Assembly (NCBI RefSeq): GCF_003315135.1
Contig: NZ_QNRK01000048.1
Span: forward strand, 1-50,063
Length of the DNA: 50,063 nt
Direction of reading: 5' to 3'
Origin: Roseiarcus fermentans
Lineage (GTDB): Bacteria; Pseudomonadota; Alphaproteobacteria; Rhizobiales; Beijerinckiaceae
Each line of letters starts with the position of its first letter. Position 1 is the stretch's first letter. Of the stretch, positions 4,064 through 38,543 are shown in pieces. Both the position numbers and the translations under genes were made by a program. A model generated the notes under the pieces. The model saw nothing but the letters and a program-made list of their open reading frames with translations. It made no database searches and was not told the origin of the DNA.

Positions 4064-4993
4064 TCAGAAGCCGACGCGGTCGCCGCCCTTGAGCTGAAGA
4101 ATCGCCCTCGCCTCGTCCGGGGTCGCGGCCTCGTGGCCGAGTTCCTCCACCAGCCGCCGCGCCTTGGCGACCTGCTCGGCGTTGGTGCGGGCGAGTTGAC
4201 CCGGTCCGAGCCAGAGCGAGTCCTCGAGCCCGACGCGCACGTTGCCGCCGAGCGCGATCGCTTGCGCTGCGATCGTCATCTGGTTGCGTCCGGCGCCCAG
4301 GACCGACCAGCGATAGTCCTTGCCGAACAGGCGGTCGGCGGTTCGGCGCATGTGCATCACGTCCTCGGGATGGCCGCCGATCCCGCCGAGGATGCCGAAC
4401 ACGCTCTGTACGAAGAACGGCGCTTTCACCAGGCCCCGGTCGACGAAATGGGCGAGGGTGTAGAGATGGCCGATGTCGTAGCACTCGATCTCGAAGCGGG
4501 TGCCGTTGTCGGCGCAGGTGGTCAAAATCTTCTCGATGTCGGCGAAGGTGTTCTTGAAGATGCGGTCGCGCGAGCCTTCGAGATAGGGCCGCTCCCAGTC
4601 GTGCTTGAAGTCCTTGAAGCGCTGCAACATGGGAAAGAGGGCGAAGTTCATCGAGCCCATGTTGAGCGAGGCGACTTCGGGCTTGAACTTCGCCACGGGC
4701 AGCAGCCGCTCGTCGATCGTCATGGTCGAGGCGCCGCCGGTGGTGATGTTCACCACGCAGTTCGAGCGCTGCTTGATGATGTCGAGGAACGGCTTGAACC
4801 GCTCGGCCGACTGGTCCGGCCTGCCGTCGGCGGGATCGCGGGCGTGCAGATGGACGATGGCGGCGCCGGCTTCCGCCGCGCCGATCGCCGCCTCCGCGAT
4901 CTCCTCGGCGGTGATCGGCAGATGCGGCGACATCGAGGGGGTGTGAATTGAACCGGTGACGGCGCAGGTGATGATGACCTTGGGCTTGCTCAT
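4064..4993 (-). CDS. BKACE family beta-keto acid cleavage enzyme (DUF849), first copy
   Basis: A 309-residue DUF849/BKACE protein. The family condenses a beta-keto acid with acetyl-CoA and releases acetoacetate plus a new acyl-CoA, using a divalent metal. The metal ligands are visible: H48 and H50 in HLHARDP and E257 in GLEDSLW. The start SKPKVIITCAVTGS is typical. It is the last gene of the long minus-strand operon, 22 bp after the flavin monooxygenase, so it presumably cleaves a beta-keto acid produced late in the ring-cleavage route. The substrate cannot be told from the sequence. A second, diverged copy lies at 24478-25341. Confidence 0.9.
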   Translation of the reverse strand: MSKPKVIITCAVTGSIHTPSMSPHLPITAEEIAEAAIGAAEAGAAIVHLHARDPADGRPDQSAERFKPFLDIIKQRSNCVVNITTGGASTMTIDERLLPVAKFKPEVASLNMGSMNFALFPMLQRFKDFKHDWERPYLEGSRDRIFKNTFADIEKILTTCADNGTRFEIECYDIGHLYTLAHFVDRGLVKAPFFVQSVFGILGGIGGHPEDVMHMRRTADRLFGKDYRWSVLGAGRNQMTIAAQAIALGGNVRVGLEDSLWLGPGQLARTNAEQVAKARRLVEELGHEAATPDEARAILQLKGGDRVGF

Positions 4994-5015
4994 GAAATCG
5001 GTATCCTTCCCTCGT

Positions 5016-6617
5016 TCAGGCTTCGGCGGCGCCGGCCAATTCCGCAGGCGCGCGGGACTCCCCGAGCCCCTCGACGCGCCTGCGCCAGTCGCCGATCAGG
5101 CGCTCGAGTTCGTTCCCGTCGCGGGCGCCCCCCTGGAGATAGAAGTCCGGCCGCACGAACGCCGCGACGCAGCCTAACCGATCGAGCCATGCGCGATAGG
5201 CCCCCGTGACGTCGATCCCCAAGGAGAGGTCGACCACGGCCACGTTCCAGCGCGCGAGGGCATCGCGGCTGGCCGCGCTCAAGGACGCCAGCGTTTCGCA
5301 GTCGCGGGCGAACAGGGCGAACCGCACGCCGAAAACGTCGTCGAACAGGCCGCTTCGTCCATCGACTTCCACCCGCGCCTGAACGCCGAGCAGGCCCGCC
5401 CCCGGCGCGCCCTCGCTCCATAGTCCCGGACCGAGGCGCGGTTGCGGCGGCGGCGGGGGCTGGTAGCCGGGCGCCGTCCGGGCGGCGATCATCTCGGCGT
5501 CGCGGGCGCGCGCCAGGTCGAGATCGGTGACGCAGATCACCTTGCCCAGTTCGATCGAGAAGCCGATCATGGCCTGCACATGGCCGCTGCGCTCGGGCCC
5601 GTAGCTGTCGAGCAGCCAATCGCCGGCGAGGCCGCGCAAGATGGCGTCGAGCCGCCAGGCGAGCGCCAGACTGTCCCGGACGCCGCTGCACAGGCCCTGG
5701 CCCGCGAACGGCGGCATCAGATGGGCGGCGTCGCCGGCGAGCAGCGCGCGGCCCATCCGCCACGTCTCGGCCCACTGGCCCCGGAACGTGTAGACCGCGT
5801 GGCGCTCCAGTTCCGCCGTCCCGGGCGTCATGCCCCAGGGTTCGAGCAGGCGCCAGGCGACCTCGCGCCGGTTCATGTCGGCCGCCGTCTCGCCCGGCAG
5901 CAGCATGAACTCCCAGCGCCGGCGCCCCGGTCCCCCCGGCACGATCGTGGTCGGCCGGCGCGGATCGCAGAGCTGCCACGTCTTCGGCGTCCATTCGCGC
6001 CGCTCGCGCGGCTTGACGTCGACCACCAGCCAGTCGAACGCAAAGCCGAGATCGTGCGTTTCGACGCCGATGGCGCGGCGCACGAACGAATTGGCGCCGT
6101 CGCAGCCGATCACGTAGCGAGCCTGGAGACGGCCCGTCTCGCCGGTCGCGACCCATTGCCCGTCGCGCATCTCGCCGCGCTCGACCTCGACGCGGACGCC
6201 GTCGGCGTCCTGGGCAAGCCGCTTCGCGCTCCAGCCCTGGCGGACGTCGACGCTCGGCGTCGCCTTGACGCGCGCGTCGAGCGCCGCTTCCAGCTCCGGC
6301 TGCGAGAAGATGTTGGAGACCGGCCAGCCGCTCGGCCCGAGGCCGCGCCAGTCGAGCTCCAGCAGCATCTCGTGATCGGCGTTGCGCCACTGGTAGGTGT
6401 CGATCTCGTCCAGGACCGGGAGCACATCGTCGATCGCGCCGGCGGCCTGCAGGATCCTTGCGATTTCGTGATCGAAATGAACCGCGCGCGGCAGCGGATA
6501 GAGATCGGGCCAGCGGTCGATGGCGACGACACGATGGCCCATCCCGCCCAGCAACAGCGCCAGCGTCTGCCCGGTCGGGCCGTAGCCGACGATCGCGACG
6601 TCCGCGGTCACTTGCAT
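5016..6617 (-). CDS. MhpA-like FAD-dependent aromatic monooxygenase
   Basis: A class A flavoprotein hydroxylase of 533 residues, close to MhpA (3-(3-hydroxyphenyl)propionate hydroxylase) in length and layout. It has the GxGxxG nucleotide fold (IVGYGPTGQTLA, 9-20), the DG motif GCDGANSFVR (171-180) and the GD motif GDAAHLMPPFAGQGL (295-309), followed by the C-terminal thioredoxin-like part of this group. It would add a hydroxyl group to a phenolic ring with NAD(P)H and O2, preparing an extradiol substrate for the dioxygenase encoded just upstream. The start ATG at 6617 lies 57 bp after the dioxygenase stop. Exact substrate unknown. Confidence 0.87.
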   Translation of the reverse strand: MQVTADVAIVGYGPTGQTLALLLGGMGHRVVAIDRWPDLYPLPRAVHFDHEIARILQAAGAIDDVLPVLDEIDTYQWRNADHEMLLELDWRGLGPSGWPVSNIFSQPELEAALDARVKATPSVDVRQGWSAKRLAQDADGVRVEVERGEMRDGQWVATGETGRLQARYVIGCDGANSFVRRAIGVETHDLGFAFDWLVVDVKPRERREWTPKTWQLCDPRRPTTIVPGGPGRRRWEFMLLPGETAADMNRREVAWRLLEPWGMTPGTAELERHAVYTFRGQWAETWRMGRALLAGDAAHLMPPFAGQGLCSGVRDSLALAWRLDAILRGLAGDWLLDSYGPERSGHVQAMIGFSIELGKVICVTDLDLARARDAEMIAARTAPGYQPPPPPQPRLGPGLWSEGAPGAGLLGVQARVEVDGRSGLFDDVFGVRFALFARDCETLASLSAASRDALARWNVAVVDLSLGIDVTGAYRAWLDRLGCVAAFVRPDFYLQGGARDGNELERLIGDWRRRVEGLGESRAPAELAGAAEA

Positions 6618-6674
6618 ATCCTCTTCCCTCTCCCGCCGGCGACGACGCCGGCGCTCGCTGTTCCGGGCCGGTCT

Positions 6675-7628
6675 TCAGGCCTCGTAGTTGTGGACGAAAT
6701 CCGCCGGCGGGTTCGGTCCCCAAACGTAGAAGGAGTCTTCCGGCGGGTGGTCGGCTGCGGGCCAGTCGGCGTCGTGAGGCACGAAATCGATGTCGGCGGA
6801 ATATTCCGCGAACGAGCCCCACGGGTCCCCGACGTAATGGAAGAAGTTGGAGCCGAGCACGTGGCGCCCCAGCCCCCAGCCCTTGGCGTAGCCCTTGCCG
6901 AGCATGTGCGTCGCGCCGATGCCGATCTCGTCAACGCTGCCGACGTCCCAGCTCAGGTGATGGAAGCCGGGGGCGCTCGATCTCGCGAGCGCGATCATGT
7001 GGTGGTCGCTGCCGTGGATGCCGTGCAGGAACGCGATGCCGTCGCCGGAGCGATCGGAAAGCCTGAGCCCGAGCACGCGCGAATAGAAGTCGATCCCCCG
7101 AGCTACGTCGGTGGTGAACAGGAGGACATGGGCGAGCCGGCGCGGATGGGTCCGCGCGACGGCGCCGCGATTGGGAGCGCCGCGCGTCAGCGGGCCGGCC
7201 GAGAACTGCACGAACGCGCTCTTCTCGCTGGGCGAGGTCTTCGGCGCGGCGGCGATCTCGACCAGGTTGCCGTCGTGGTCGTGGAACCACAGGCCGTTCG
7301 AATCGACGCCGGCGGGCGGATCGACGCGCTTGACGCCCTGCGCCTGAAGGCGCTCGGCGAAGCGGTCGAGATCGTCCTCGAAGGCCCCGAACGTCATCGA
7401 CCGGTGCTTCTTGCGCGGACCCTCGCCGATAGTTCCCCAGACGTGGGGACTGCCCCTGGTCGCGAGCGAAAGGGCCCCGCCGCGCTCGCCGACGTCGAGT
7501 CCGAACGCGTCGTAGAAGGTTCTGGCGACGGCGAGGTCCGGGACGACGAAATGAAAATGGTCGAGCGAATGCACCCCGAGCGCGCCCGGCCTGCGGGTCG
7601 GCTTCACGTATCCCTGAATGGCGGTCAT
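6675..7628 (-). CDS. VOC-family extradiol ring-cleavage dioxygenase, copy 1
   Basis: A 317-residue two-domain vicinal-oxygen-chelate protein of the type I extradiol dioxygenase class. The second domain holds the expected Fe(II) triad: H167 (in RLAHVLLFTTD), H223 or H224 (GFHHLSWD) and E275 (WGSFAEYSAD); N-terminal domain about residues 18-130. It would open a catechol-type ring next to the hydroxyl pair with O2. It is a clear paralogue of the protein encoded just upstream at 7826-8776, sharing length, the GRHVLGSN segment and a C-terminal WGP-x-x-P ending. The 197-bp gap between the two genes (7629-7825) shows no further gene. Confidence 0.87.
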   Translation of the reverse strand: MTAIQGYVKPTRRPGALGVHSLDHFHFVVPDLAVARTFYDAFGLDVGERGGALSLATRGSPHVWGTIGEGPRKKHRSMTFGAFEDDLDRFAERLQAQGVKRVDPPAGVDSNGLWFHDHDGNLVEIAAAPKTSPSEKSAFVQFSAGPLTRGAPNRGAVARTHPRRLAHVLLFTTDVARGIDFYSRVLGLRLSDRSGDGIAFLHGIHGSDHHMIALARSSAPGFHHLSWDVGSVDEIGIGATHMLGKGYAKGWGLGRHVLGSNFFHYVGDPWGSFAEYSADIDFVPHDADWPAADHPPEDSFYVWGPNPPADFVHNYEA

Positions 7629-7825
7629 GCGTCTCCTCCTGCGTCTTCCGCTTCGTCCTTTTCGCCGCGCTTCGAGCGCGCGAGCCGCTCGCCGCGCCGA
7701 ACGCGCTGTCGCCGACTATAGGGCCGCGCGGATCTCGATCGAAACCGCGCCGGGCCCTTCGCGAGCGCGATCGCCTCGGCGACGGCCGCCGGGGCGTCGG
7801 TTCGCGCGCGTCCGTTGCGGCGCCG

Positions 7826-8776
7826 TCAGGCCGCCGTCTCCTCGGTGAACTGCATCATCTCCGCCGGCGCGTCCGGACCCCAGAGGTAGAAGGCGTCCTC
7901 GTCGGCGAAATTGGCGACCTCCCAGGGGGCGTCCTTCTCGATGTAGTCGATGTGGCAGCTGTTCTCCCACAGCTGGCCCCATGTGTCGGCGGTATAATTG
8001 AAATAGTTGGAGCCGAGCACGTGCCGGCCGGGGCCCCAGTGTATGGCGTAGCCGGCCGCGCGCAATTGCGTGTTGGCGAGGCCGAGGCATTCGACGCTCG
8101 GCATGTCCCAGGACGTGTGGTGCAGGCCGGGGGCGGGGCCGGCGGCGAAGGCCAGCATGTGATGATCGGAGCCGTGGCGGCCGTAGGTGAAGGCGATGAT
8201 GTCGCCCGAGCGGTCGGCGAGCCGCAACCCGAGCGCCTGGGTGTAAAACGCGAGGGCGCGGTCGAGGTCCGGCGTGAACAGCGCCACATGCGACAGCCGC
8301 GTCGCCCCGACCTTGCGCGCCGCCGAGCGCGCCGGCGCGCCGCGCACGTTGGCGCCGACGTTGAGATCGTCCATGCGCGCCTTCGCGTCCGGCATCGTCT
8401 TCGCCGCGACCAGCACCTGAACCAGCAGGCCGAACGGGTCGCGGAACCAGAACCCGCCGGTCGGACCGGCCGGATGGCCGTTGGAAAAGACGCCGCCGGC
8501 CGCCTCGACCTGATCGCGGATCCGCCCGTAATCCTGCTCGTAGCAGCCGAGCGACAGATATTGCAGCTTCTTGCGCGCGGTCTCCGACTTCAGAATCGTC
8601 GCCCAGACGTGATCGCCGCCGCCGGCGCGGATCTCGATGCGGTCGCCGGCGCGAGTCGGCTCGACGCCGAACGCTGCGAGAAAGCGCTGCGCCTCGTCGA
8701 GGTCGGGCTCCGCGAGCCCGAACTGGAAGATGGAATGGACGCCGGCCTCGGCGTCGTGAAAATCGATCTTCGGCAT
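7826..8776 (-). CDS. VOC-family extradiol ring-cleavage dioxygenase, copy 2
   Basis: A second two-domain extradiol dioxygenase (316 residues) with the same architecture as its neighbour. Predicted metal ligands are H163 (RLSHVALFTPD), H219 or H220 (GLHHTSWD) and E271 (WGQLWENSCHID). The two copies differ most in the N-terminal domain, so they may have different substrates or one may act on the product of the other branch. Two ATGs are close together: 8782 overlaps the livM stop as ATGA but has GGGAGG only two bases away, while 8776 has ideal spacing and is preferred. Translation is coupled to the permease gene upstream. Confidence 0.85.
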   Translation of the reverse strand: MPKIDFHDAEAGVHSIFQFGLAEPDLDEAQRFLAAFGVEPTRAGDRIEIRAGGGDHVWATILKSETARKKLQYLSLGCYEQDYGRIRDQVEAAGGVFSNGHPAGPTGGFWFRDPFGLLVQVLVAAKTMPDAKARMDDLNVGANVRGAPARSAARKVGATRLSHVALFTPDLDRALAFYTQALGLRLADRSGDIIAFTYGRHGSDHHMLAFAAGPAPGLHHTSWDMPSVECLGLANTQLRAAGYAIHWGPGRHVLGSNYFNYTADTWGQLWENSCHIDYIEKDAPWEVANFADEDAFYLWGPDAPAEMMQFTEETAA

Positions 8777-8778
8777 GC

Positions 8779-9846
8779 TCATGTCCTCCCGACTTCTGTC
8801 TTTCCAGCCAATTCGAGCGTCCGCGCGCCGCGCTGCGGCTGCCGCGCCGACAGGATGAGGCGGCGTTGCAGCGGCAGGAGCTGCAGGTCCCAGCGCGCCC
8901 GCACGTATCCCCAGAGGCCGGCGGGGGCGAAGACGACCACGCCGACCGCGACCGCCCCCATGACCAGCCAGTACCAGGTCCCGTAGTCGGCCAAGAGCCA
9001 GCGCAGGCCGAAGAAGATCGCCGTGCCGAGCACCGGCCCCTCGAGCGTGCCGATCCCGCCGATGACGACGATGAACACGGCCGCGACGACCCAGTTCGGA
9101 TCGAAGGCGGCGTTGGGCGAGATTCTGAGGATGCTGGTGAAATAGACTGCGCCGACCAGGCCCGCGCCGAACGAAGCCAGCGTGTAGACCTGAAGCTTCA
9201 GCGCCTTGACGTCGACGCCCTGACTTTCGGCCGCGTCCTCGCTGTCGCGGATCGCCGTCAGGCCGAGCCCGAAGCGCGAGCGCAGGAGCAGGTTGATCGC
9301 GACCGACGCAGCGATCAGGACCGTCGCGGCGATCAGATAGACGCCGATCTCGCGCGTCGTGCGGTCGATATGCGCCATCACGGTCAGGCTCTGCCCGGAG
9401 CCGCCGCCCAGGAGCGACACGTTGGAGAAGGCGATGCGGAACACTTCCGCCAGAACCCAGGTGCCGATGGCGAAATAGCCGCCGCGCATGCGGAAGACGA
9501 GAACCGAGGTCAGGAGCGCGGCCAGCGCCGCCATGACGCCGCCGAGCGGAATGGCGAGGAACGGATGGACGCCGAGGTGCTGGGCGAAGATGAAGAGGGA
9601 ATAGGCCCCGACGCCGACGAAGGCCTGCATGCCGACCGACATCAGGCCGCCGTAGCCCGCCATCAGGTTCCACATCTGGGCGAGCACGAGGTAGCACATC
9701 ACCTCGACCCCCCAGCGCATCAGCGCCGGACTTCCCCAGAGCGGCACGGACAGCACCGCCAGCGCCGAGGCGACGCCGAGCCAGACCGCCGCGACGCTGG
9801 TCCGGGTGTTGCGCGAGACCGTGTAGGAAACGCCGCGTTCGGTCAT
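8779..9846 (-). CDS. Branched-chain amino acid-type ABC permease, LivM family
   Basis: A membrane protein of 355 residues with about ten hydrophobic segments and the LivM-typical internal sequence SRFGLGLTAIRDSEDAAESQ that contacts the ATPases. Its ATG overlaps the livH stop by 4 bp (ATGA). It is one of five adjacent genes for a complete HAAT-family importer lying inside the aromatic catabolic operon, so the cargo is more likely an aromatic acid or phenol than an amino acid. A charged tail of about 35 residues follows the last membrane span. Confidence 0.87.
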   Translation of the reverse strand: MTERGVSYTVSRNTRTSVAAVWLGVASALAVLSVPLWGSPALMRWGVEVMCYLVLAQMWNLMAGYGGLMSVGMQAFVGVGAYSLFIFAQHLGVHPFLAIPLGGVMAALAALLTSVLVFRMRGGYFAIGTWVLAEVFRIAFSNVSLLGGGSGQSLTVMAHIDRTTREIGVYLIAATVLIAASVAINLLLRSRFGLGLTAIRDSEDAAESQGVDVKALKLQVYTLASFGAGLVGAVYFTSILRISPNAAFDPNWVVAAVFIVVIGGIGTLEGPVLGTAIFFGLRWLLADYGTWYWLVMGAVAVGVVVFAPAGLWGYVRARWDLQLLPLQRRLILSARQPQRGARTLELAGKTEVGRT

Positions 9847-10709
9847 AGCGTCCTCGCAAACAGGCCGGTCGGCTTGAAGAACAGCACCGCGAGGAAGACG
9901 AGATGGCCCGCGAGGATGCCGATGCCGATCGCGATCTTGGCCCCGAGCGTCTGGGCGACGCCGAGGATGACGGCGCCGGCGAAGGTGCCCCAGAGCGACC
10001 CCATGCCGCCGATCACCACCGCCTCGAAGGCGTAAAGCAAGGCGGCCGGCCCGGACTCGGGGGTGAAGGTGGTGCGGATGCCGGCGAACACCCCGCCGAC
10101 CGCGATCAGGGCGAAGGAGATCGCGAGCGCGATCCCGTAGGTGTGGCGGGCGCGGATGCCCATCAGCCCCGCGGTCTCGGCGTCGTCCGACGTCGCCCGG
10201 AGCGCGATGCCGATGCGGGTGTGGGTGAAGAGCAGCGACACCAGCACGGTCAGCGCGATCGCGGTCGCGAACACGATCAGCGGGAACAGCCCGATGGCGA
10301 TCCCGCCGCCCACCGCGATGCTGTCGGTTCCCAGGGCGCCGATCTGGAACGAGCGCGAATCCGAGTGGAACACCTGCTGCAGCCCGTTGCGCAGGATGAT
10401 CGACAGGCCGAACGTCGCCAGCAGCGGCGCCAGCGGGTTGGGTCCGATCGTGCGGTTGAGCAGAATGCGCTGCAGCGAGTAGCCGAGGCAGAACATCAGC
10501 GCCGCCACCGGCAGGATGGCCAGGAACGGATTGAGCTGCATCTGCATCACTGGCCACAGCGCCAGATAGGCGGCGAGCACCAGGAAGTCGCCGTGGCCGA
10601 TGTTGACCACGCGCATCACGCCATAGGTGATCGAGAGCCCGATCGCGAACAGCGCGTAGAGGCCGCCGAGCAGGACCCCCTGAATGATCGTGTCGAGCCA
10701 TTCGATCAT
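9843..10709 (-). CDS. Branched-chain amino acid-type ABC permease, LivH family
   Basis: A 288-residue inner-membrane permease with the LivH signature GLYALFAIGLSITYGVMRVVNIGHGDF at its N-terminus and the conserved TRIGIALRATSDDAETAGLMG coupling loop in the middle. It pairs with the LivM-like protein to form the channel of the importer. It starts one base after the livF stop and overlaps livM by 4 bp, so all three are translated together. Confidence 0.88.
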   Translation of the reverse strand: MIEWLDTIIQGVLLGGLYALFAIGLSITYGVMRVVNIGHGDFLVLAAYLALWPVMQMQLNPFLAILPVAALMFCLGYSLQRILLNRTIGPNPLAPLLATFGLSIILRNGLQQVFHSDSRSFQIGALGTDSIAVGGGIAIGLFPLIVFATAIALTVLVSLLFTHTRIGIALRATSDDAETAGLMGIRARHTYGIALAISFALIAVGGVFAGIRTTFTPESGPAALLYAFEAVVIGGMGSLWGTFAGAVILGVAQTLGAKIAIGIGILAGHLVFLAVLFFKPTGLFARTL

Positions 10710-10710
10710 G

Positions 10711-11412
10711 TCAGCGGTCCTCGAGTCCGAAATAGGCGGCGGAGATCGCCTCGCGACCGAGGTCGCGCGGCGCGCCGCGCAGCGTCACCCGCCCGTGCAT
10801 GAAGCAATAGATTTCGTCGGCGGCCTTGAGCGCCATGTCGATGTCCTGCTCGACCACGACGATCGACACGCCCTCGTCGCGGATCTTCGGCAGGACGGCG
10901 TAGATGTCCTTGACCACCGCCGGCGAGAGCCCGAGCGACAGTTCGTCGCACAGCAAGAGATCGGGGTTCGACATCAGCGCCCGGCCGATCGCGACCATCT
11001 GCTGCTGGCCGCCCGACAGCGCGGTCGCGGGATTGGCGCGCCGCTCCCTCAGGACCGGGAAGAGAGCAAAGACCGTCTCGAGGCGCCATCGCCCGGCGCG
11101 GCCCGCGAACGCCCCGGCGCGAAGGTTTTCTTCGACCGTCAGGCTGCGAAACAGGCGCCGCCCCTCGGGAACCATCGAGACGCCGCGGCGGACGACCTCG
11201 TCGGCGGCGAGCGCCCCGATGTCCTCGTTCTGAAAGCGGATCTCGCCGCCCTTCGACGGCATCAGCCCTGCGATCGAACGCAGGAACGTCGACTTTCCGG
11301 CGCCGTTGGCGCCGATCAGGGCCACGATCTGGCCCTTGGCCGCGTCGAAGTCGACGCCGAAGAGGGCCTGGAAGTCGCCGTAGCGGGCGACGAGATTTCT
11401 GACGCGCAGCAT
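10711..11412 (-). CDS. ABC transporter ATPase, LivF family
   Basis: A 233-residue cytoplasmic ATPase with Walker A GANGAGKST (about 34-42), the signature ALSGGQQQMVAIGRALMSNP and Walker B LLLCDELSLGL, the usual LivF pattern. It energises the importer together with the LivG-like ATPase encoded 8 bp upstream. Start ATG at 11412. Confidence 0.88.
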   Translation of the reverse strand: MLRVRNLVARYGDFQALFGVDFDAAKGQIVALIGANGAGKSTFLRSIAGLMPSKGGEIRFQNEDIGALAADEVVRRGVSMVPEGRRLFRSLTVEENLRAGAFAGRAGRWRLETVFALFPVLRERRANPATALSGGQQQMVAIGRALMSNPDLLLCDELSLGLSPAVVKDIYAVLPKIRDEGVSIVVVEQDIDMALKAADEIYCFMHGRVTLRGAPRDLGREAISAAYFGLEDR

Positions 11413-11420
11413 TGTCGCCT

Positions 11421-12146
11421 CTAGACCTCGATACCCATGTAGACGCGTTTCACATCGGAGCTCGCCATCACCGCGCGGGGATCGCCCTCGGCGAGCTTGG
11501 CGCCGAAGTTGATGACGAGGAGGCGCGAGGCGACCGCGAGCAGCGCGTGCACGACATGCTCGATCCAGACGATGGTCACGCCGCGCGCGCGGATATCGTT
11601 GATCAGGGCGATCAGGTCGTGCGCCTCGTGCTCGGTGAGGCCGCCGGCGATTTCGTCGAGCAGCAGGAGCGCGGGGTCGGTGGCGAGCGCGCGCGCCAGC
11701 TCGAGCCGCTTGCGGTCGAGCAGGGTCAGCGTTCCGGCGAGGCGGTTGGCCTTGCCGATCAGTCCGGTCCGGTCGAGGAGATCGACGCAGCGGTCGTTCG
11801 CCTCGGCCGCCGACCGCTGGCCGGCGCCGAACATGGCGCCGACCAGCAGGTTCTCGAACACGGTCATGCCCTCGAACGGCAGCGCGACCTGATAGGAACG
11901 GCCGATCCCCGCCCGGCAGCGACGGTGGGGCGAGAGCCGGGCCATGTCCTGGCCGTTGAAGCGGATCGCGCCGGAGTCGGGCGCGAGGCCGCCGCTGATC
12001 AGGTTGAACACCGTCGTCTTGCCCGCGCCGTTCGGCCCGAGGACGCCGAGCGCCTCGCCCCTGGCGACTTCGAACGAAAGGTCGTCGGTCACCTTGAGCG
12101 CGCCGAAACTCTTGGAGACGCGCTCGAAGGAGAGAAGGGCGGTCAT
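11421..12146 (-). CDS. ABC transporter ATPase, LivG family
   Basis: A 241-residue ATPase with Walker A GPNGAGKTT (about 38-46) and Walker B ALLLLDEIAGGL. The ABC signature is degenerate (LTLLDRKRLELARAL in place of LSGGQ), a form seen in one branch of LivG-like proteins acting on non-amino-acid cargo. The insertion after the first helical region and the C-terminal VKRVYMGIEV ending are typical of LivG. It follows the binding-protein gene by 27 bp. Confidence 0.86.
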   Translation of the reverse strand: MTALLSFERVSKSFGALKVTDDLSFEVARGEALGVLGPNGAGKTTVFNLISGGLAPDSGAIRFNGQDMARLSPHRRCRAGIGRSYQVALPFEGMTVFENLLVGAMFGAGQRSAAEANDRCVDLLDRTGLIGKANRLAGTLTLLDRKRLELARALATDPALLLLDEIAGGLTEHEAHDLIALINDIRARGVTIVWIEHVVHALLAVASRLLVINFGAKLAEGDPRAVMASSDVKRVYMGIEV

Positions 12147-12173
12147 CGCTGCGCGTCCCCGCGGGTCCGGACT

Positions 12174-13472
12174 TCAGTACGGGATCGCGATCGGCTTGGC
12201 GGCGACCGGGATCTCGGGCGCTTCGGTGTTCGCCACGACGATCAGGTCGTGCGGCCACTTGTCGCCCTTCACCCACTGGCCGGCGACCAGCGGCGTCTTG
12301 CACACGTTCTTCATCGGTCCCTTGCTCCAGTCGACGCGGCCGACGATGGTGGCGAGGTTGGTGGCGACGATCGCGTCGCGCAGCGAGGCCTTGTCGCTCG
12401 GGTCCTTGGCGCGCTTGATGACGTCGGCGGCGACCTCGAACATCGAGTGGACGAAGCCGATCGCGCCGTTCCACTGCCGTCCGGTGGCGGCCTCGTAGCC
12501 GTCGGCGAGCTGCGGCGAGGTGATGCCGGTCAGCGACGACTTGAACGGATTGGCGGGCGTCCACCACAGTTCCTGCGACAGGCCGTTGGCGAGGTCGCCC
12601 ATCGAATCGACGACGGAGGGGAAGGAATAGGCCTTGCCCATGGTCACGACCTTCGGGCGGAAGCCCTGCTGGCGCGCCTGCTTCCAGAAGTTGATGAAGT
12701 CCGGCGGGATCGGCACGCCGCACAGGATCTCGACGCCGGCCTTCTTGTAGGCGGCGATCTGGGCGCTGAAATCCTGGCTCAGCGGCTGGAAGCGGCCCGG
12801 ATCGAAGACGGTGAAGCCCATCTTGGTCAGCAGCGGCGGAAGGCCGAGCTTCGGATCGCCCCAGGCGTTGCCGTCGCCGTCGTTGGCGAGGAACAGGCCG
12901 ACCTTCTTGTTGGTGTCGACCTGCTTCCAGATGCTGGTGAAGACCTCGAGGATGTCCTCGATGCCCCAGAAGTAGTGGTAGGTCCACTGGAAGCCCTTGG
13001 CCGGGTCGCCGCCGCGGCCGAAGAACCAGGGCTGCCACGGCGTCGTGGTCGAGATGCAGGGCACGCCGTTGAGCTCGCACTGGTCGCAGACGGGATTGGA
13101 GTTTTCCGGCGTCGCGCCGACCACCATCAGGTCGATCCCGTCCTGCAGGATCAGTTCGCCGGCGACCTCGGCCGCGCGGTTCGGGTTCGACTGGCTGTCC
13201 TTGACCAGGATCTCGATCGGGAAGGTCCCGGCCGGATTGGCGAGGCCGTTCTTGAACGCGGCGCGGACGCCCTGGAGGATGAACTCGTCCGCCTCGGCCA
13301 GCGGCGCGAGCGGGCCCGTCGTCGGCGTGACCAGGCCGATCTTGATCGGCCGCGGCGCGGCGCGCGCGACGCCGAACGGCGCGACCGAGGCGAGCGCCGA
13401 GGCGCCGGCCAGTTGCAGCGCCCGCCGCCGGTCGAGCCTCGGGCCGCCGCGCATGAATTCGATGTCCGCCAT
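12174..13472 (-). CDS. Periplasmic substrate-binding protein of the ABC importer (LivJ-like)
   Basis: A 432-residue type I periplasmic binding protein. The N-terminus has an RRR stretch followed by a hydrophobic segment ending ARA (about residues 14-38), a likely Tat or Sec signal, and the mature part begins with IKIGLVTPTTGPLAPLAEADEFILQG, the family start. It captures the substrate for the LivHMGF-like transporter encoded downstream. Genes of this subfamily frequently sit in aromatic degradation clusters. Substrate unknown; a phenolic such as a trihydroxybenzene or an aryl carboxylate would fit the neighbours. Confidence 0.86.
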   Translation of the reverse strand: MADIEFMRGGPRLDRRRALQLAGASALASVAPFGVARAAPRPIKIGLVTPTTGPLAPLAEADEFILQGVRAAFKNGLANPAGTFPIEILVKDSQSNPNRAAEVAGELILQDGIDLMVVGATPENSNPVCDQCELNGVPCISTTTPWQPWFFGRGGDPAKGFQWTYHYFWGIEDILEVFTSIWKQVDTNKKVGLFLANDGDGNAWGDPKLGLPPLLTKMGFTVFDPGRFQPLSQDFSAQIAAYKKAGVEILCGVPIPPDFINFWKQARQQGFRPKVVTMGKAYSFPSVVDSMGDLANGLSQELWWTPANPFKSSLTGITSPQLADGYEAATGRQWNGAIGFVHSMFEVAADVIKRAKDPSDKASLRDAIVATNLATIVGRVDWSKGPMKNVCKTPLVAGQWVKGDKWPHDLIVVANTEAPEIPVAAKPIAIPY

Positions 13473-13516
13473 ATCGTCCTCCCTGATGATTTTGTTTGCT
13501 TGTTCCGGCCGCGGGC

Positions 13517-14383
13517 TCAGCCGCCGAGCGAAAGTTCTCCCAGATAGGTCGGGACGCCGGCCTTGGCCTTGGCCGTCGCCGGCGGGAACCCTTCACGGGT
13601 GATCCGGACCGTGTAGTCGCCGGTCGTTCGGGTCAGCCCGTCGAACTTGAAGTCGCCGAAGGCGTCGGTGCGCGCCGTTGCAAGCGTCTGTCCGTCGGCG
13701 ATCAGCGCCACCTCGGCGCCCTCGATGCATTCGGTGACGCCCTGCACCTTGCCGATCACGGCGCCGCCGACGAAGTGGCTCTTCGCCCGGCCGAGGTTCT
13801 TGTACCAGACGCGCGGCCGGGTCTTCAGCTCGGGGCGGATCGTCTCGAGCCTCTCCGCGTCGACCCGCCGCGTCATCTCGGCGTCGTCCGCCTTGACGGA
13901 GGTGAACACGCCGGTCGGGCACGAGTGGGCGCAGCGCGGCTCGGTCCAGCCCTGGTCGAGGAGGTGGGCGTCGAAGGTCCAGTTCTGCGGCAGCTGCGCC
14001 TCCTCGTTCCAGACGATCGCGCCGTACGGGCAGGCGCCGACCAGGTCCTTCCTGCCCTTCGCGGCGACCGGATCGATGACGACGATTCCGTCGTCGCGCT
14101 TCCGCACCGCGTCCGGCGCGGCCTTGATGCAGGGCGCGTCGTCGCAATGATTGCAGAGCCTGGGCACGTAGGTCACGTCGACCATGTGGCCGGAGCCGCG
14201 CATGTGACGGGTGATCTCGATCACGCTTCTGCCGTGGCGCGCGTGTCCGGCGCTGTAGCCGGGGAAATCGGCGCCGACGTACTCGTCCTTGGTGGCGAGG
14301 ATGCAATTGTTGCAGTTTTCGCAGAGCGCGACGTCGACGATGAGGTTCCATCGCGCCGTCGGCCGGGGTGTCGACTGGGTCAT
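13517..14383 (-). CDS. Transhydroxylase-type molybdoenzyme, Fe-S small subunit
   Basis: A 288-residue electron-transfer subunit resembling the small subunit of pyrogallol-phloroglucinol transhydroxylase (274 residues in Pelobacter acidigallici). Residues 12-165 form a ferredoxin-like core (CENCNNC at 21-27, CNHCDDAPC at 77-85, CPYGAI at 118, CAHSCP at 151-156); residues 210-288 form a Cna-B/carboxypeptidase-regulatory-like beta domain, as in the Pelobacter protein. Only nine cysteines are in the core. The position after CNNC-x-x-x is T31, and the usual CTFC near 135-138 reads WTFD, so the ligands of one [4Fe-4S] cluster appear to be missing. The gene lies 14 bp after the large-subunit gene. 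Resorcinol hydroxylase small subunit is the closest alternative role. Confidence 0.86.
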   Translation of the reverse strand: MTQSTPRPTARWNLIVDVALCENCNNCILATKDEYVGADFPGYSAGHARHGRSVIEITRHMRGSGHMVDVTYVPRLCNHCDDAPCIKAAPDAVRKRDDGIVVIDPVAAKGRKDLVGACPYGAIVWNEEAQLPQNWTFDAHLLDQGWTEPRCAHSCPTGVFTSVKADDAEMTRRVDAERLETIRPELKTRPRVWYKNLGRAKSHFVGGAVIGKVQGVTECIEGAEVALIADGQTLATARTDAFGDFKFDGLTRTTGDYTVRITREGFPPATAKAKAGVPTYLGELSLGG

Positions 14384-14397
14384 CGGTCGGGCTCCGT

Positions 14398-17376
14398 TCA
14401 GGCGCGCAAAAGCGCATGTTCCGGCGGCGTCCAGGTCTCGAACTGGACGAGGCAGGCGTTGGAGCCCATGCCGTCGGTATTGCGGGTTTGCGGGCGGTCG
14501 GGGGTCAGGATGTTGACGCAACCGCCGAAGTCGACCAGCCCGTAGCGCGGGTCGTGCTGGAAGTCGGACTCGGCGCTCGACTCGTAGGTCTTGCAGACGC
14601 CGCGCATGGTGAGCGGGCTGACGTCGGCCGCGCACACGACCGAGCCGCGGTCGTTGAAGACGCGGATCAGGTCGTTGTGGGCGATCCCGCGCGCCTTCGC
14701 GTCCTCGTCGTTGATCCGCATCACCCAGTAGAGGCGGCCGCCGACGTTCACCCGGTGGTCCTTGATGTCGTTGATCGTGGAGTCCTTGCCGTCGCCGTAG
14801 GTGTGGAAGCTGTAGCGCGAGTGGGTCGAGATCATCTGGACGGGGAACTTCTTGACCAGAGCTTCGGTGCGCGGCCCCTCCCAGGAGGGCACGTAGCGGT
14901 TGAGCGGATTGCGTTCCGGATCGACCGCGTCGAAGCGCTTGAGCGAATTCGGGATGAACTCGATCTTGCCCGACTGGGTCGACAGCCCCTTGAGGAAGTC
15001 GCCGGACCATTGCGAGGGCATCGGGATCGGCTCGGGCGCGTCCTTGGGACGCCCTTCGGCGAACCAGCCGTAGTTGCGCGGCGTCCGGATCGCCTCGGGC
15101 TCCGGCGGCACGACGTAATAGCCCTTCTTGACGAAATCGGCCCACTTCACCCGCTTCGAGGCGTCCGAGGCCATGAACAGGCGCCGCGCCCAGTCGAGAT
15201 CCGAGCACCCTTCGGTGAACATCGCCCCCGTTCCCATGCGGTTGAGAATGCCGGTGAAGATGTCGTAGTCCGATTTCGATTCGCCTAGCGGCTCGATGCA
15301 TTTGTGTTGCATCATCACCATGCGGTGATTGAGGCCGTGGGTGTTGTGGTGGATGTAGCCGCCCGAATTGGCCACTTCCGAGATGTCCCAGCGCTCGAAC
15401 GAGGTGCAGGCGGGCAGGATCACGTCGGCGAAATGCGCGTCGCCCTCCATCCAGATCGCCTGGTTGACGACCATGTCGATCGACTCGTGCCGGAACATGT
15501 CGATGTAGCGGCCCGACTTGGCGATCGTGCCGAAGGTCGAGGTTCCGTAGCGGTAGAGCATGTGGATCTTCGAATAGCCGGGCTTGGGATATTCGTAGGC
15601 CTGGAACTGCGCTTCGTTCGAGAAGCCGTCCCACGGATAGCCCCTTGCGTAGCCGTCGATGATTGCCTCGGGCAGACGCTGGCGCGGCACCATCTGCTGG
15701 ACGGGGTTCATGCTGAGGATGTGCGGCATGCGGCAGTAGGTGTGCGGCGCGGCCGCGGTCCACTGGAGTTCGCCCGAAATGCCGCCCTCCGCGTAGCCCG
15801 GGAACCAGAAGTACGGGTCGAGCGGCGTGCCGTACTGCAGGTTGCCGAAATTGACCCCCGGCTTGCCGAGGCCCTGCATCGCCATCATCATCACCAGATT
15901 GCGGGCGAACTGCGTGCCGGTGGCGTTGCGGCACGCGCCGCCGAAGCCGATGCCCGGTCCGCCGGCGCCGAGATAGACCTTGCGATTGCCCCACTTGCGC
16001 GCCAGCGCGCGCACCACGTGGGCGGGGATTCCGGTCTCGTCCGCCTGCCATTCCGGCGTCTTGGGCACGCCGTCCTCGACCCCGAGCACGTAGTCGCGCC
16101 ATTCCTCGAAGCCGGTCGTGCGGTTGGCGACGTAGTCCTTGTCGTACAGCCCCTCGTTGATCCAGACGTTCATGATCGCGAGCGAGAGCGCCGGATCGGT
16201 CCCGGGCCGGATCGGAATCCAGCGGCCGCCGAAGAGTTGCGCCGTCGGGTTGAAGTTCGGATCGATGTGGACCATCTCGATGCCGAGGTCCTTGGCCCAC
16301 AGGCGCCGTTTGGTGCCCTCGTAGCCGGCGGCGTAGCCGTTGGTCGATTCCGGGTCGCTCGACCAGAAGACGATCATCTCGGCTTCCTTCAGGCAGTCCT
16401 CGACCAGGCCGTACATGCCCGAGACGCCGACGCGCATCGAATTGCCGTAGTGATGGGTCGCGCCCCAGTACCAGCCTTCCCAGGAATCCGGGTTGTGATG
16501 GACGCGGGTGAAGCCGAGGAGATTGCCGAAGCGCAGCAGCGCCGACAGATAGTAGCCGACGTTGCCCCACTGGTGATGCGAGCCGTGCCAGATCGCCAGC
16601 GCGCCGGGCCCGTAGACCTGGCGCTGGCGCTTGATCTCGTTTCCGACCATGTCGAACGCCTCGTCCCAGCTGATGCGGACGTAGCCCGACTTGCCCCGGT
16701 TCTGCGGATTGCGCGCGCCGTTCGGATCGAAGTCGACGCGCTTCATCGGATAGAGGATGCGCTTGTCGGAATAGACCATCGACTTGAGGGTCTGCGCGTG
16801 CGGATTGATGCTGACGCGCCGATCGGGCGAGAACGTCTTGCCGCGGGCGCGGATGACGAAGCTCGGGGCGTCGCTCGGGTCGAGGTCGATCGGCGTAATG
16901 CGCAGGATCTTGCCGTCCTTCACATAGACGAAGGTCGGCCCGCCGTTGCCGTTCTGCGTGTAACGGGTCGATCCGTCCGGCATCTTCGCGCCGTACTCGA
17001 GCTTGGCGCTCGCGGTCAGGTTCATCAGTTGTGCGAACCAGACCGCGAGATGGTCCGGACCGATCAGCAGCACGCGAAAATTCTTCATCGCGTGAATGAT
17101 CTCGGCCTGGTCGGCGTTCGGGTTGAGGAAGGCGAGCGCGGTGTCGACGTCGAGGATGTCGACGATCACGTCCGGCTTCGCGTGCAGCCCGGCCTTGCTC
17201 TTTACGCCATCGATCGAGATGTCGTACCAGCGGCCGAGCGAACCGTCGCGCAGCTTCACCTGCACCACGGCGCGCGTCTTGCCGATATGCTTTCGTACCG
17301 CGCCATACTTCTTGATGGAGCTACGCAGGACCTGCGAGACCATGAAGAGAATGAACTTGAGCTTGAGCAGGTCCAT
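14398..17376 (-). CDS. Transhydroxylase-type molybdoenzyme, large (Mo-bisMGD) subunit with N-terminal SCP2-like domain
   Basis: A 992-residue DMSO-reductase-family protein. Residues from about 124 onward align with the 875-residue Pelobacter transhydroxylase at a nearly constant offset of 123: H267, Y275, D297, S298 (the molybdenum ligand) and W299 fall exactly on its remembered active-site residues His144, Tyr152, Asp174, Ser175 and Trp176, and Y528 on Tyr404. The family moves a hydroxyl group between polyhydroxylated benzenes without O2. Residues 1-120 are an extra domain that looks SCP2-like (GRWYDISIDG ... FRVLLIGPDHLAVW). There is no N-terminal Fe-S cysteine motif and no Tat signal, so it is cytoplasmic. 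Substrate is uncertain: pyrogallol, resorcinol or another phenol. Confidence 0.86.
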   Translation of the reverse strand: MDLLKLKFILFMVSQVLRSSIKKYGAVRKHIGKTRAVVQVKLRDGSLGRWYDISIDGVKSKAGLHAKPDVIVDILDVDTALAFLNPNADQAEIIHAMKNFRVLLIGPDHLAVWFAQLMNLTASAKLEYGAKMPDGSTRYTQNGNGGPTFVYVKDGKILRITPIDLDPSDAPSFVIRARGKTFSPDRRVSINPHAQTLKSMVYSDKRILYPMKRVDFDPNGARNPQNRGKSGYVRISWDEAFDMVGNEIKRQRQVYGPGALAIWHGSHHQWGNVGYYLSALLRFGNLLGFTRVHHNPDSWEGWYWGATHHYGNSMRVGVSGMYGLVEDCLKEAEMIVFWSSDPESTNGYAAGYEGTKRRLWAKDLGIEMVHIDPNFNPTAQLFGGRWIPIRPGTDPALSLAIMNVWINEGLYDKDYVANRTTGFEEWRDYVLGVEDGVPKTPEWQADETGIPAHVVRALARKWGNRKVYLGAGGPGIGFGGACRNATGTQFARNLVMMMAMQGLGKPGVNFGNLQYGTPLDPYFWFPGYAEGGISGELQWTAAAPHTYCRMPHILSMNPVQQMVPRQRLPEAIIDGYARGYPWDGFSNEAQFQAYEYPKPGYSKIHMLYRYGTSTFGTIAKSGRYIDMFRHESIDMVVNQAIWMEGDAHFADVILPACTSFERWDISEVANSGGYIHHNTHGLNHRMVMMQHKCIEPLGESKSDYDIFTGILNRMGTGAMFTEGCSDLDWARRLFMASDASKRVKWADFVKKGYYVVPPEPEAIRTPRNYGWFAEGRPKDAPEPIPMPSQWSGDFLKGLSTQSGKIEFIPNSLKRFDAVDPERNPLNRYVPSWEGPRTEALVKKFPVQMISTHSRYSFHTYGDGKDSTINDIKDHRVNVGGRLYWVMRINDEDAKARGIAHNDLIRVFNDRGSVVCAADVSPLTMRGVCKTYESSAESDFQHDPRYGLVDFGGCVNILTPDRPQTRNTDGMGSNACLVQFETWTPPEHALLRA

Positions 17377-17428
17377 CCGTTTCGCTCCCCGCGATTGTTA
17401 TCGTCTTCGAAGGTCTTTGCCTTGTCGC

Positions 17429-18265
17429 TTAGACGACGGTCTGCCGTTGCGAGCCGAGGATCCCGCCGTCGAGTTCGATCACGTCGCCGCGCTTCAGGAA
17501 CTGCGGCGGCTTCATGCCGGCCCCCACGCCCTCCGGCGTCCCGGTGACGACCACGTCGCCCGGCAACAGCGTCATGAACTGGCTGAGGTGCGACAGGATC
17601 TCGGCCACGGTGAAGATCATGTCGTTCGTACCGCTCTTCTGCCGCACGGCGCCGTTGACCGAGAGGGTCAGCGGGATCGCCTGCGGATCGGGGATCTCGT
17701 CCGCAGTCACCAGCCAGGGACCGAGCGGCCCGAACGTGTCGAAGCTCTTGCCCTTGACCCACTGGCCGCTGCGATTGGCCTGCCACTCGCGCTCGGAGAC
17801 GTCGTTGGCGAGGCAATAGCCGGCGATGTGCCCGAGGGCGGCCTCGCGGCCGACACTCTGCGCCTTGGTCCCGACGACGAAGGCGAGTTCGACCTCCCAA
17901 TCCATCTTCTCGGATCCCTGCGGCCAGCGAAGGTCGTCATTGGGGCCGTGAATGCAGGTGATCGCCTTGTTGAAAACGACCGGGTCGTTGGGGATCTGCA
18001 TGCCGGCTTCGGCGGCGTGCTTGCGATAGTTCAGGCCGATGGCGATGAACTGACGAATTCCAGCGACGGGCGCGCCGAGCCGCGCGCCGTCGGACACGAC
18101 GGGCAGTTTCTCGAGGTCGATCGCCGCGAGCGCGCCGAGCTTGTCGGGGGACAGCCATTCGGGCGTGATGTCGGGGACGAGGAGCGACAGGTCGCGCCTG
18201 ACGCCGTTTCTGTCGAGCGCTCCGGCCCGCTCCGAGCCAACCGCGCCGTGTCGGAAAAGCCGCAT
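17429..18265 (-). CDS. Fumarylacetoacetate hydrolase-family enzyme
   Basis: A 278-residue FAH-fold protein. The metal ligands E124 and E126 (in DWEVELAFVVGTK) and D155 (in ANDVSERE) are visible, with a conserved GLNYRKHAAE segment (77-86) and the C-terminal GTPEGVGAGMKPP loop. Such enzymes hydrolyse, hydrate or decarboxylate the keto products of meta-cleavage. It is the first gene of the minus-strand operon; ATG 18265 has a GGGGAGG site. The operon promoter must lie in the AT-rich region shared with the divergent regulator gene. Exact reaction cannot be assigned; hydratase, decarboxylase and acylpyruvase activities occur in the family. Confidence 0.85.
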   Translation of the reverse strand: MRLFRHGAVGSERAGALDRNGVRRDLSLLVPDITPEWLSPDKLGALAAIDLEKLPVVSDGARLGAPVAGIRQFIAIGLNYRKHAAEAGMQIPNDPVVFNKAITCIHGPNDDLRWPQGSEKMDWEVELAFVVGTKAQSVGREAALGHIAGYCLANDVSEREWQANRSGQWVKGKSFDTFGPLGPWLVTADEIPDPQAIPLTLSVNGAVRQKSGTNDMIFTVAEILSHLSQFMTLLPGDVVVTGTPEGVGAGMKPPQFLKRGDVIELDGGILGSQRQTVV

Positions 18266-21738: not shown

Positions 21739-21740
21739 CC

Positions 21741-24475: not shown

Positions 24476-24477
24476 CC

Positions 24478-25341: not shown

Positions 25342-25384
25342 CCGCGCTCGTTGAGCGCGGACGCGGTCAGCGACCGCGTCTACA
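25342..25384. repeat. Tandem double-hairpin repeat, copy B
   Basis: Two perfect hairpins directly after the BKACE stop: CCGCGCTC-gtt-GAGCGCGG then GACGCGGTC-agc-GACCGCGTC, followed by TACA. It resembles copies at 19936-19993 and 29040-29079. Its place inside an operon means it may also attenuate or stabilise the mRNA. Confidence 0.7.
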
Positions 25385-25406
25385 GGCCAGAGAAGGAGCC
25401 GAAAAG

Positions 25407-26570: not shown

Positions 26571-26586
26571 ACCCGCCACTTCATCC

Positions 26587-26665: not shown

Positions 26666-26682
26666 GATCGGGAAAGGTTGCC

Positions 26683-38526: not shown

Positions 38527-38543
38527 TGGTCAGCTCCTCTGTC

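Follow-up and report, generated by a model that had tools for sequence, protein, structure and literature searches.

A putative hybrid route for resorcinol-type phenols in Roseiarcus fermentans, combining a molybdenum hydroxylase-like enzyme with extradiol ring cleavage

In the meta-cleavage pathways of the textbooks the aromatic ring is prepared by O2-dependent oxygenases. Orcinol meta-cleavage, in which 2,3,5-trihydroxytoluene is converted to a 2,4,6-trioxo acid, relies on the flavin hydroxylase OrcA and is not known to involve a molybdenum (Mo) enzyme. Among the Mo enzymes, the pyrogallol-phloroglucinol transhydroxylase uses a tetrahydroxybenzene co-substrate, and the hydroxyl added by the resorcinol hydroxylase RehLS comes from water. 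RehLS and the oxidative hydroxyhydroquinone pathway are known from the nitrate reducers Azoarcus anaerobius and Thauera aromatica AR-1; genes for an E1/E2/E3-type dehydrogenase lie beside the Mo enzyme in this anaerobic pathway, and the complex cleaves hydroxyquinone. The conversion of resorcinol to hydroxyhydroquinone by resorcinol hydroxylase in anaerobic respiration is described in one report (PMC10100899). According to two others, the type I extradiol dioxygenase HcdB cleaves 2,3,5-trihydroxyphenylpropionate (PMC6222606), and the triacetate acetoacetate-lyase of Clostridium scatologenes (CsTAL), a member of the beta-keto acid cleavage enzyme (BKACE) family in the phloroglucinol pathway, acts on 3,5-dioxohexanoate (PMC10470551).

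The window analysed here is a stretch of 50,063 nucleotides from Roseiarcus fermentans, which also carries reaction-centre genes. An earlier note had described twelve tightly packed minus-strand genes at 4064..18265, and all of them are present as open reading frames. The packing, calculated from the coordinates, is tight with intergenic gaps of -4 to 57 nt, except for 197 nt between VOC1 and VOC2; neither a consensus terminator nor a sigma-70 promoter was called in this gap, whose length is similar in the congener L134. Family scans upheld the names of ten proteins, and the two ATPases, which were outside the scan, are named from their sequence and relatives. Read along the minus strand, the genes encode a FAH-family hydrolase, a proposed acylpyruvate-type C-C hydrolase (17429..18265; PF01557, 243 bits), the large subunit of the Mo enzyme, a proposed resorcinol-type hydroxylase (14398..17376; PF21423, PF00384), its Fe-S small subunit with a CarboxypepD_reg-like C-terminal domain (13517..14383; PF13247 Fer4_11, PF13620), an ABC importer consisting of a substrate-binding protein (12174..13472; PF13458), ATPases 1 and 2 (11421..12146 and 10711..11412) and permeases 1 and 2 (9843..10709 and 8779..9846; both PF02653), the type I extradiol dioxygenase-like proteins VOC1 (7826..8782) and VOC2 (6675..7628; both PF00903), a MhpA-like FAD monooxygenase (5016..6617; NF004829, PF01494) and a BKACE (4064..4993; NF053538, PF05853). 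A divergent gene on the plus strand (18548..19243, start as in L134, where a divergent relative is present) is of the GntR type according to its sequence and is likely to encode a regulator.

The BphC residues H146, H195, H210, H241, Y250 and E260 are all matched in the alignments of VOC1 and VOC2, so that both carry the 2-His-1-Glu metal site and the catalytic His/His/Tyr of type I extradiol dioxygenases, and the six residues are likewise kept by each of the 32 VOC proteins with a length of 280-345 aa. Against the NCBIfam equivalog models, both proteins scored below cut-off. The best PDB match of the FAH protein was 8gsr, an L-2,4-diketo-3-deoxyrhamnonate hydrolase (E 1.7e-77), and its score against NF053535 was 363 bits, below the cut-off of 500; the FAA_hydrolase domain and the likeness to a 2,4-dioxo acid hydrolase suggest an acylpyruvate hydrolase. 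The MhpA-like protein passes the subfamily model NF004829 (622 bits, cut-off 390) and remains below the cut-offs of the equivalogs PRK06183.1-1, -2, -4 and -5, by which it does not qualify as MhpA (3-HPP hydroxylase) itself. The BKACE passes NF053538 (552 bits, cut-off 430), which makes it a candidate '3,5-dioxohexanoate:acetyl-CoA acetone transferase'. BKACE genes adjoin VOC, FAH and Mo-enzyme genes in L042, L053 and L063 as well, the one in L042 being of the NF053538 type.

Relatives of the large subunit were the best 80 of 583 in the main search, among which near relatives are over-represented and many belong to the Burkholderiaceae. The 104 large-subunit genes correspond to 103 loci (L098 holds two), which include the window as well as L134, a near copy of it; genes outside the window were called with a simple caller, which performed poorly on L172 and parts of L173-L176. 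A VOC gene lies within 6 kb of the large-subunit gene in 42 of the 103 loci and has two-domain size (at least 250 aa) in 34, the remaining eight holding only shorter VOC genes, some of them truncated by the start call or at a contig edge. FAH genes were found within the same distance in 45 of 103 loci, and both VOC and FAH in 36 (31 with a VOC of at least 250 aa). When the window and the identical repeats L146 and L112 are left out, the counts are 33 of 100 for VOC of at least 250 aa and 30 of 100 for VOC and FAH together. Neither VOC, FAH nor E1 was seen within 6 kb in 46 of 103 loci (49 if short VOC genes are disregarded), some of which lie on short contigs. Homologues of the Mo enzyme that never co-occur with dioxygenase genes had been named beforehand as evidence against a common system; this objection fails on the 42 VOC-linked loci, and it is very probable that the Mo enzyme works in the same pathway as O2-dependent ring cleavage, as the earlier note had supposed.

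Gene densities within 5 kb of the large subunit were compared with those 5 to 10.5 kb away in 100 loci. VOC genes reach 5.0 near versus 1.1 far genes per 100 kb (about 4.4-fold) and FAH genes 4.6 versus 1.3 (about 3.6-fold), which together with the counts over 103 loci rules out a chance neighbourhood. E1 genes are not denser near the Mo gene (5 near, 7 far), MhpA genes are denser far from it (2 near, 7 far), and acyl-CoA synthetase genes number 20 near and 4 far. A 656-aa neighbour first considered as an acetoacetyl-CoA synthetase proved to be a general acyl-CoA synthetase (NF005714). In 14 further loci, a VOC of 255-279 aa was found no more than two genes away from the Mo gene in three (L192, L195, L196), a VOC of 180-188 aa in four (L189, L190, L191, L201) and none in seven; L190 and L191 are probably the same records as L080 and L085, judging from their matching gene arrays.

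The Burkholderiales locus L020 contains FAH, large subunit (73% identity), small subunit, five importer genes and VOC in the order of the window, and its 16 kb contig shows no match to MhpA or BKACE. The Mo enzyme therefore probably prepares the ring for cleavage, and the MhpA-like monooxygenase, to judge from this syntenic contig, is not a required partner. Relatives of the importer binding protein adjoin Mo-enzyme genes in L020, L025, L134, L135 and L139. In G708, a genome of the same genus, one contig runs from FAH to VOC1 in the same order and breaks off in the first part of VOC2, and sequence searches (rather than gene calls) located MhpA (81%) next to BKACE (92%) on a second contig; the gene order is thus more than chance. 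In G734, a congener devoid of the Mo enzyme, BKACE lies beside VOC2 alone, so that VOC2, MhpA and BKACE may be a module of their own.

E1 genes occur within 6 kb in six loci, all of which lack VOC and FAH there according to model-based assignment. In the Rhodocyclales loci L135, L136 and L139, E1-type genes lie beside the same Mo enzyme, in L135 and L139 together with the same importer. E1/E2/E3-type dehydrogenase genes, by which the oxidative pathway would be recognized, are absent from the window operon, and a search of its own genome with the fused E1 gave no close relative (best match 33%). The 700-aa neighbours in L142-L144 were rejected as hydroxyquinone-pathway E1, the scanned one in L143 being another Mo oxidoreductase.

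The large subunit shares 51% identity with AhtL of Pelobacter, whose structure 4v4c (911 bits) is the closest solved one, and with a PF21423 score of 83.8 bits (cut-off 27) it belongs to the AhtL-like family. The two enzymes agree at seven of the ten active-site positions examined, namely H267, Y275, D297, S298, W299, Y528 and Y674, which correspond to AhtL H144, Y152, D174, S175, W176, Y404 and Y560, residues that we take to have catalytic roles. AhtL R153, F468 and C557 are replaced by Y276, W582 and S671; no other group listed has R153 either, so this residue marks AhtL apart, not the window enzyme. Position 557 is Cys in AhtL and the E1-linked rows, and not in the window or most VOC-linked clades, a split which may mean that the window and E1-linked enzymes have different substrates. 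S298 at the Mo-ligand position and the PF13247 small subunit are as in RehLS-type enzymes, although AhtL shares both, so that they do not discriminate.

A quick tree was built from AhtL and the 103 large subunits with a length of 850 aa or more, without the split gene of G336 (L145) and the second gene of L098 (838 aa). In it, AhtL clusters with Chloroflexota, Bacillota and Myxococcota-type rows, a long way from the window enzyme, its long branch making the exact place unsure. The large subunit thus shares neither the clade nor the entire pocket of AhtL. The window clade has eight rows (support 99), all VOC-linked, L023 only via a 117-aa fragment at a contig edge; a single 60-row clade holds this clade and five of the six E1-linked rows, with AhtL far outside. 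An unexpected feature is the N-terminal domain of the large subunit (16966..17376, modelled part 16966-17367), which has no counterpart in AhtL and whose predicted structure matches the SCP2 fold over the whole domain. Any role of this domain is a guess, as a shared fold shows no function. The SCP2 domain and the acyl-CoA synthetase neighbours had given rise to the idea of an alkylresorcinol substrate. The N-terminal extension is, however, also found in relatives without acyl-CoA synthetase genes, and what the window offers in place of such genes is an ABC importer and BKACE; alkylresorcinol as the general substrate was therefore demoted to an option.

These results bear on the name transhydroxylase. 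On a reading in line with the earlier note, the enzyme would merely move a hydroxyl between phenols (e.g. from a phloroglucinol-type to a pyrogallol-type compound) with no net oxidation, after which MhpA and VOC could act. The similarity to AhtL, including the kept equivalents of H144, D174, S175 and Y404, fits this reading, as does the operon itself, among whose genes no dedicated electron-transfer partner or acceptor is visible. We nevertheless regard it as unlikely, since the identity is 51%, AhtL lies outside the window clade, three pocket residues differ (R153 counting for little), L020 combines VOC and FAH with no MhpA match on its contig, and in the Rhodocyclales relatives an E1-type dehydrogenase replaces VOC/FAH, suggesting the oxidative resorcinol/hydroxyhydroquinone type. 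Given that type, a link we draw from general background, it is incomplete to describe the known transhydroxylase pathways as anaerobic and reductive.

On balance we lean towards a hybrid pathway for resorcinol-type phenols, composed of a water-using Mo hydroxylase, extradiol cleavage, FAH and BKACE. Starting from the observed gene content, recurrent linkage, kept active-site residues, predicted SCP2 fold and phylogenetic place, we infer substrate, reaction direction, electron acceptor and step order as follows. The ABC importer would take up the aromatic compound, and the Mo large and small subunits would add a water-derived hydroxyl to a resorcinol-type ring, using neither O2 nor NADPH and giving a 1,2,4-trihydroxy (2,3,5-trihydroxy-R) benzene. 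The Fe-S small subunit would carry the electrons away, perhaps delivering them to a quinone bound in the SCP2-fold domain. Cleavage of the ring by VOC1 (and VOC2) with O2 would follow and yield a 2,4,6-trioxo acid, from which FAH would release pyruvate and a 3-oxo acid (R-CO-CH2-COOH), and BKACE would convert the latter with acetyl-CoA to acetoacetate and acyl-CoA. The MhpA-like flavoprotein may be accessory, serving in pre-hydroxylation or as an alternative O2-dependent hydroxylase. The use of O2 is possible, since the genome has five COX1-family matches.

Alternatively, one regulator might control two branches for the same substrate, the Mo enzyme acting under anoxic phototrophic conditions and MhpA and VOC under oxic ones. 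Reaction-centre genes in the window and COX1-family genes in the genome make both lifestyles plausible, and gene types for O2-dependent and O2-independent hydroxylases are both present; we consider this quite improbable, however, because the anaerobic back end sought across the genome, the fused E1, has no close relative there, and because the Mo enzyme accompanies VOC/FAH also in genera that are not known to be phototrophic. Similarly improbable is that two modules for different compounds (FAH, Mo enzyme, importer and VOC1; VOC2, MhpA and BKACE) adjoin, as the 197-nt gap, the L020 contig with the first module only and the BKACE-VOC2 pair of G734 might suggest, since in G708 the first module continues as far as the beginning of VOC2, MhpA and BKACE being paired on the other contig, the gap has no called terminator or promoter, BKACE lies beside VOC/FAH/Mo in three other loci, and Mo enzyme, VOC1 and FAH would even then form a hybrid.

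The hybrid pathway may extend beyond this locus, as the similar pairings of Mo and ring-cutting enzymes in other bacteria suggest hybrid degradation of resorcinol-like phenols. More tentatively, we propose widespread unrecognised aerobic pathways in which an SCP2-bearing Mo enzyme hydroxylates resorcinol-type rings with water and passes electrons to quinone, so that energy is gained, NADPH is unspent and O2 is used only for the ring cut, and in which importer and Mo enzyme would form a front half swapped between back halves that need O2 (VOC/FAH) and ones that do not (E1/E2/E3). If true, part of the 'anaerobic' phenol chemistry would take place in soils and root zones that are oxic or low in oxygen; this would also account for transhydroxylase-like genes in Paraburkholderia-, Pseudomonas-, Rhizobium- and Ensifer-type bacteria, provide a testable role for a large number of enzymes that may bear the wrong name and join a lipid-carrier fold to a molybdoenzyme. 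The system had been called undescribed, which stands within the reach of the literature searched (titles and abstract openings of the papers listed), where no description of a Mo hydroxylase combined with extradiol cleavage was found.

Compared by gene context and general background, the RehLS system is similar in having a Ser-ligated Mo enzyme for a 1,3-dihydroxyphenol, and L135, L136 and L139 show the E1-type context of its pathway, whereas the window operon has extradiol dioxygenases and FAH as back end in place of the dehydrogenase complex. Pelobacter AhtL is alike in family, overall identity and seven of ten active-site positions, but differs in clade and in the other three positions, and the window enzyme has the additional SCP2-fold domain and O2-dependent neighbours. 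The phloroglucinol pathway of C. scatologenes is anaerobic and reductive, unlike the one proposed here, and the likeness of the window BKACE to CsTAL is through the family model NF053538 only. The orcinol pathway shares the 2,4,6-trioxo acid with the proposed route, but employs OrcA instead of a Mo enzyme. Finally, in the HcdABC system of Pseudomonas mandelii 7HK4 the hydroxyl is introduced by a flavin-binding hydroxylase instead of a Mo enzyme and nothing in the accessible part of the source assigns the hydrolase to the FAH family, yet there, too, a 2,3,5-trihydroxyphenyl compound is cut by an extradiol dioxygenase and then passed to a putative hydrolase (PMC6222606).

All twelve genes of the operon are present on the minus strand at 4064–18265, as the earlier note had observed, within a window that is one contig (C48) of a 6.79-Mb genome. 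Read from 18265 downwards they encode a FAH-family hydrolase (FAH), the Mo-enzyme large subunit, its Fe-S small subunit, a substrate-binding protein, two ATPases, two permeases, two type I extradiol dioxygenase-like proteins of the VOC family (VOC1 and VOC2), an MhpA-like monooxygenase (MhpA) and a beta-keto acid cleavage enzyme (BKACE). A gene for a GntR-type regulator, so named from its sequence, lies divergently on the plus strand (18548–19243). NCBIfam and Pfam scans fit the protein names proposed earlier for 10 of the 12 products, the two ATPases being named from sequence and relatives only. The description of the genes as tightly packed holds for gaps of -4 to 57 nt, but not for the 197 nt separating VOC1 and VOC2, where a consensus promoter or terminator was looked for and none was called.

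Comparison of the large subunit's neighbourhoods across genomes supported the suggested pairing of the Mo enzyme with ring-cleavage genes. A contig scan identified 583 relatives of the large subunit, and the best 80 of these, the window and loci from further genomes gave 103 scored loci. Within 6 kb of the large subunit, 42/103 loci contain a VOC-family gene, 45/103 FAH, 36/103 both, 6/103 an E1 gene (of dehydrogenase-complex type) and 46/103 none of the three, all counts including the best 80 of 583. If only VOC proteins of at least 250 aa are counted, the same set, again with the best 80 of 583, gives 34/103 for VOC, 31/103 for VOC with FAH and 49/103 for none; this recount lowers some pairing figures, too little to shift the odds of the reading. 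At the 100 loci counted for gene density, the number of VOC genes per 100 kb is 5.0 at up to 5 kb from the large subunit versus 1.1 further out; the values are 4.6 versus 1.3 for FAH and 2.3 versus 0.6 for acyl-CoA synthetase, whereas for MhpA the relation is reversed (0.2 versus 1.0) and E1 shows no enrichment (0.6 versus 1.0). The scored loci are not independent, many being from Burkholderiaceae; tree rows with both VOC and FAH also occur in Cellvibrionaceae, Parvularculaceae, Comamonadaceae, Sphaerotilaceae, Neisseriaceae and Pseudomonadaceae. Pseudomonas benzenivorans DSM 8628 and Curvibacter lanceolatus ATCC 14669 are examples of environmental bacteria in which VOC and FAH accompany the large subunit.

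The large-subunit gene itself is sporadic, being found in 9/298 genomes of its own family, 9/385 of its own class, 12/249 of a Rhodocyclales family and 4/349 of the order around a Caballeronia genome, the centre genome being counted in each. The family, class and order searches added 14 loci, with a VOC protein of 255–279 aa beside the Mo gene in 3/14, one of 180–188 aa in 4/14 and none in 7/14. Single-domain VOC proteins of 168–182 aa are encoded at or near the Mo genes of the alphaproteobacterial loci L075, L080, L085, L099, L189, L190 and L191, some of which also have FAH and TRAP transporter genes. At L145 (G336:C123), where VOC and FAH genes lie alongside, the large subunit is split into two ORFs (30962–32584 and 32638–33942), through either gene breakage or misassembly.

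Several relatives differ in other respects. At the position of Asp174 of AhtL, the Pelobacter transhydroxylase large subunit, a Burkholderiaceae sub-clade (L070, L073, L076, L081, L083, L086, L090, L091) has Ile, and L019, L088, L094 and L151 have Asp, Gln or Ser; from the sequences we read changes at this position as probably lost or changed chemistry. Upstream of the Mo genes, L022, L033, L051, L063, L064, L071 and L141 have genes that, on reading the clusters, are of the DUF1302-DUF1329-YCF48-RND type, sets known from the catabolism of hydrophobic compounds.

Within the genus, the large subunit is present in 1/10 other genomes (G708, 92% identical). One of its contigs (C103, locus L134) has the order FAH, large subunit, small subunit, importer, VOC1 and, at the contig end, a VOC2-like gene, and on another (C361) MhpA (81%) and BKACE (92%) adjoin each other. 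In the congener G734, BKACE adjoins VOC2 and the Mo enzyme is absent at the search threshold; therefore the last genes of the operon may form a separate, older module. The shortest version, L020 on a 16-kb Burkholderiales contig, keeps the window's order of FAH, large subunit (73%), small subunit, five related importer genes and one VOC gene, with one extra gene (268 aa) between FAH and large subunit; neither MhpA nor BKACE has a match on this contig. If it shows the complete operon, the Mo enzyme would be its only hydroxylase and would prepare the VOC substrate.

For ring cleavage, VOC1 and VOC2 align with all six active-site residues of BphC, which are also kept in 32/32 VOC proteins of 280–345 aa. 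A type I extradiol dioxygenase, HcdB, is reported to cut 2,3,5-trihydroxyphenylpropionate (PMC6222606). The closest solved structure to the window's FAH is L-2,4-diketo-3-deoxyrhamnonate hydrolase, and therefore it is a fair inference that FAH would free pyruvate from a 2,4-dioxo acid. The BKACE of the window scores above the NF053538 cut-off, as does that of L042, which adjoins FAH, VOC and Mo genes; other loci have an acyl-CoA synthetase or aldehyde dehydrogenase as neighbour instead. These varied neighbours fit putative 3-oxo acid substrates that would differ with the substituents of the parent resorcinol.

Elsewhere in the window, the stretch 36521–43307 contains photosynthetic reaction-centre genes, with two PF00124 proteins (37558–38526 and 38547–39320), and a nitrogenase-type reductase subunit (PF00148, 41769–43307); by gene content the bacterium is a purple phototroph. 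Locus L068 of Rhodoblastus sphagnicola has a large subunit identical to that of L146, from genome G712 of the same family, which places the window's family with Rhodoblastus. A second, unrelated molybdoenzyme, a hydroxylase of the xanthine-dehydrogenase type with fused 2Fe-2S domain (32662–35301), adjoins an amidohydrolase (31478–32665). The PF13531 solute-binding protein at 29114–29812, of a family that includes molybdate-binding proteins, shares the window with two Mo enzymes. A plus-strand cluster (20128–28943) contains a carboxyltransferase (20128–21738), a second BKACE (24478–25341) and an AMP-binding enzyme (27411–28943).

Some relatives have an alternative back end. L135 and L139 (genomes G410 and G478) combine the Mo enzyme and the same importer type (in L135 over the stretch examined) with a fused E1 replacing VOC and FAH; in L135, where it was scanned, the fused E1 carries PF00676, PF02779 and PF02780. 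Named from sequence, an E2-like gene adjoins it in both and an E3-like gene is present in L135, and in L136 the scanned E1 consists of separate subunits, accompanied by E2- and E3-like genes. By the models used, neither VOC nor FAH occurs at any of the 6 loci in which E1 lies within 6 kb; L135 and L139 each encode a single-domain VOC protein (196–197 aa) that these models leave uncounted. For L022 and L033, the distance between E1 and the large subunit is about 5 kb. At 33%, the best match to the fused E1 in the window's genome is not a close copy. A possible third back-end type is seen in L142, L143 and L144, where two small genes and then one of 702–716 aa come after the large and small subunits; in L143, the one scanned, the long gene encodes a second Mo oxidoreductase.

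Pathways for the anaerobic degradation of resorcinol and of 3,5-dihydroxybenzoate have E1, E2 and E3 beside such a Mo enzyme. A Ser-ligated resorcinol hydroxylase that forms hydroxyhydroquinone is described in PMC10100899. Within the open-licence literature searched, a joining of known enzyme kinds like that in the window's operon was not found in print. Of the earlier interpretation, the hybrid with O2-dependent meta-cleavage probably stands, but hydroxylation from water is likelier than the proposed rearrangement of hydroxyls. The likeliest system is a hybrid, in which the Mo enzyme would add a water-derived hydroxyl and O2-dependent meta-cleavage would then open the ring.
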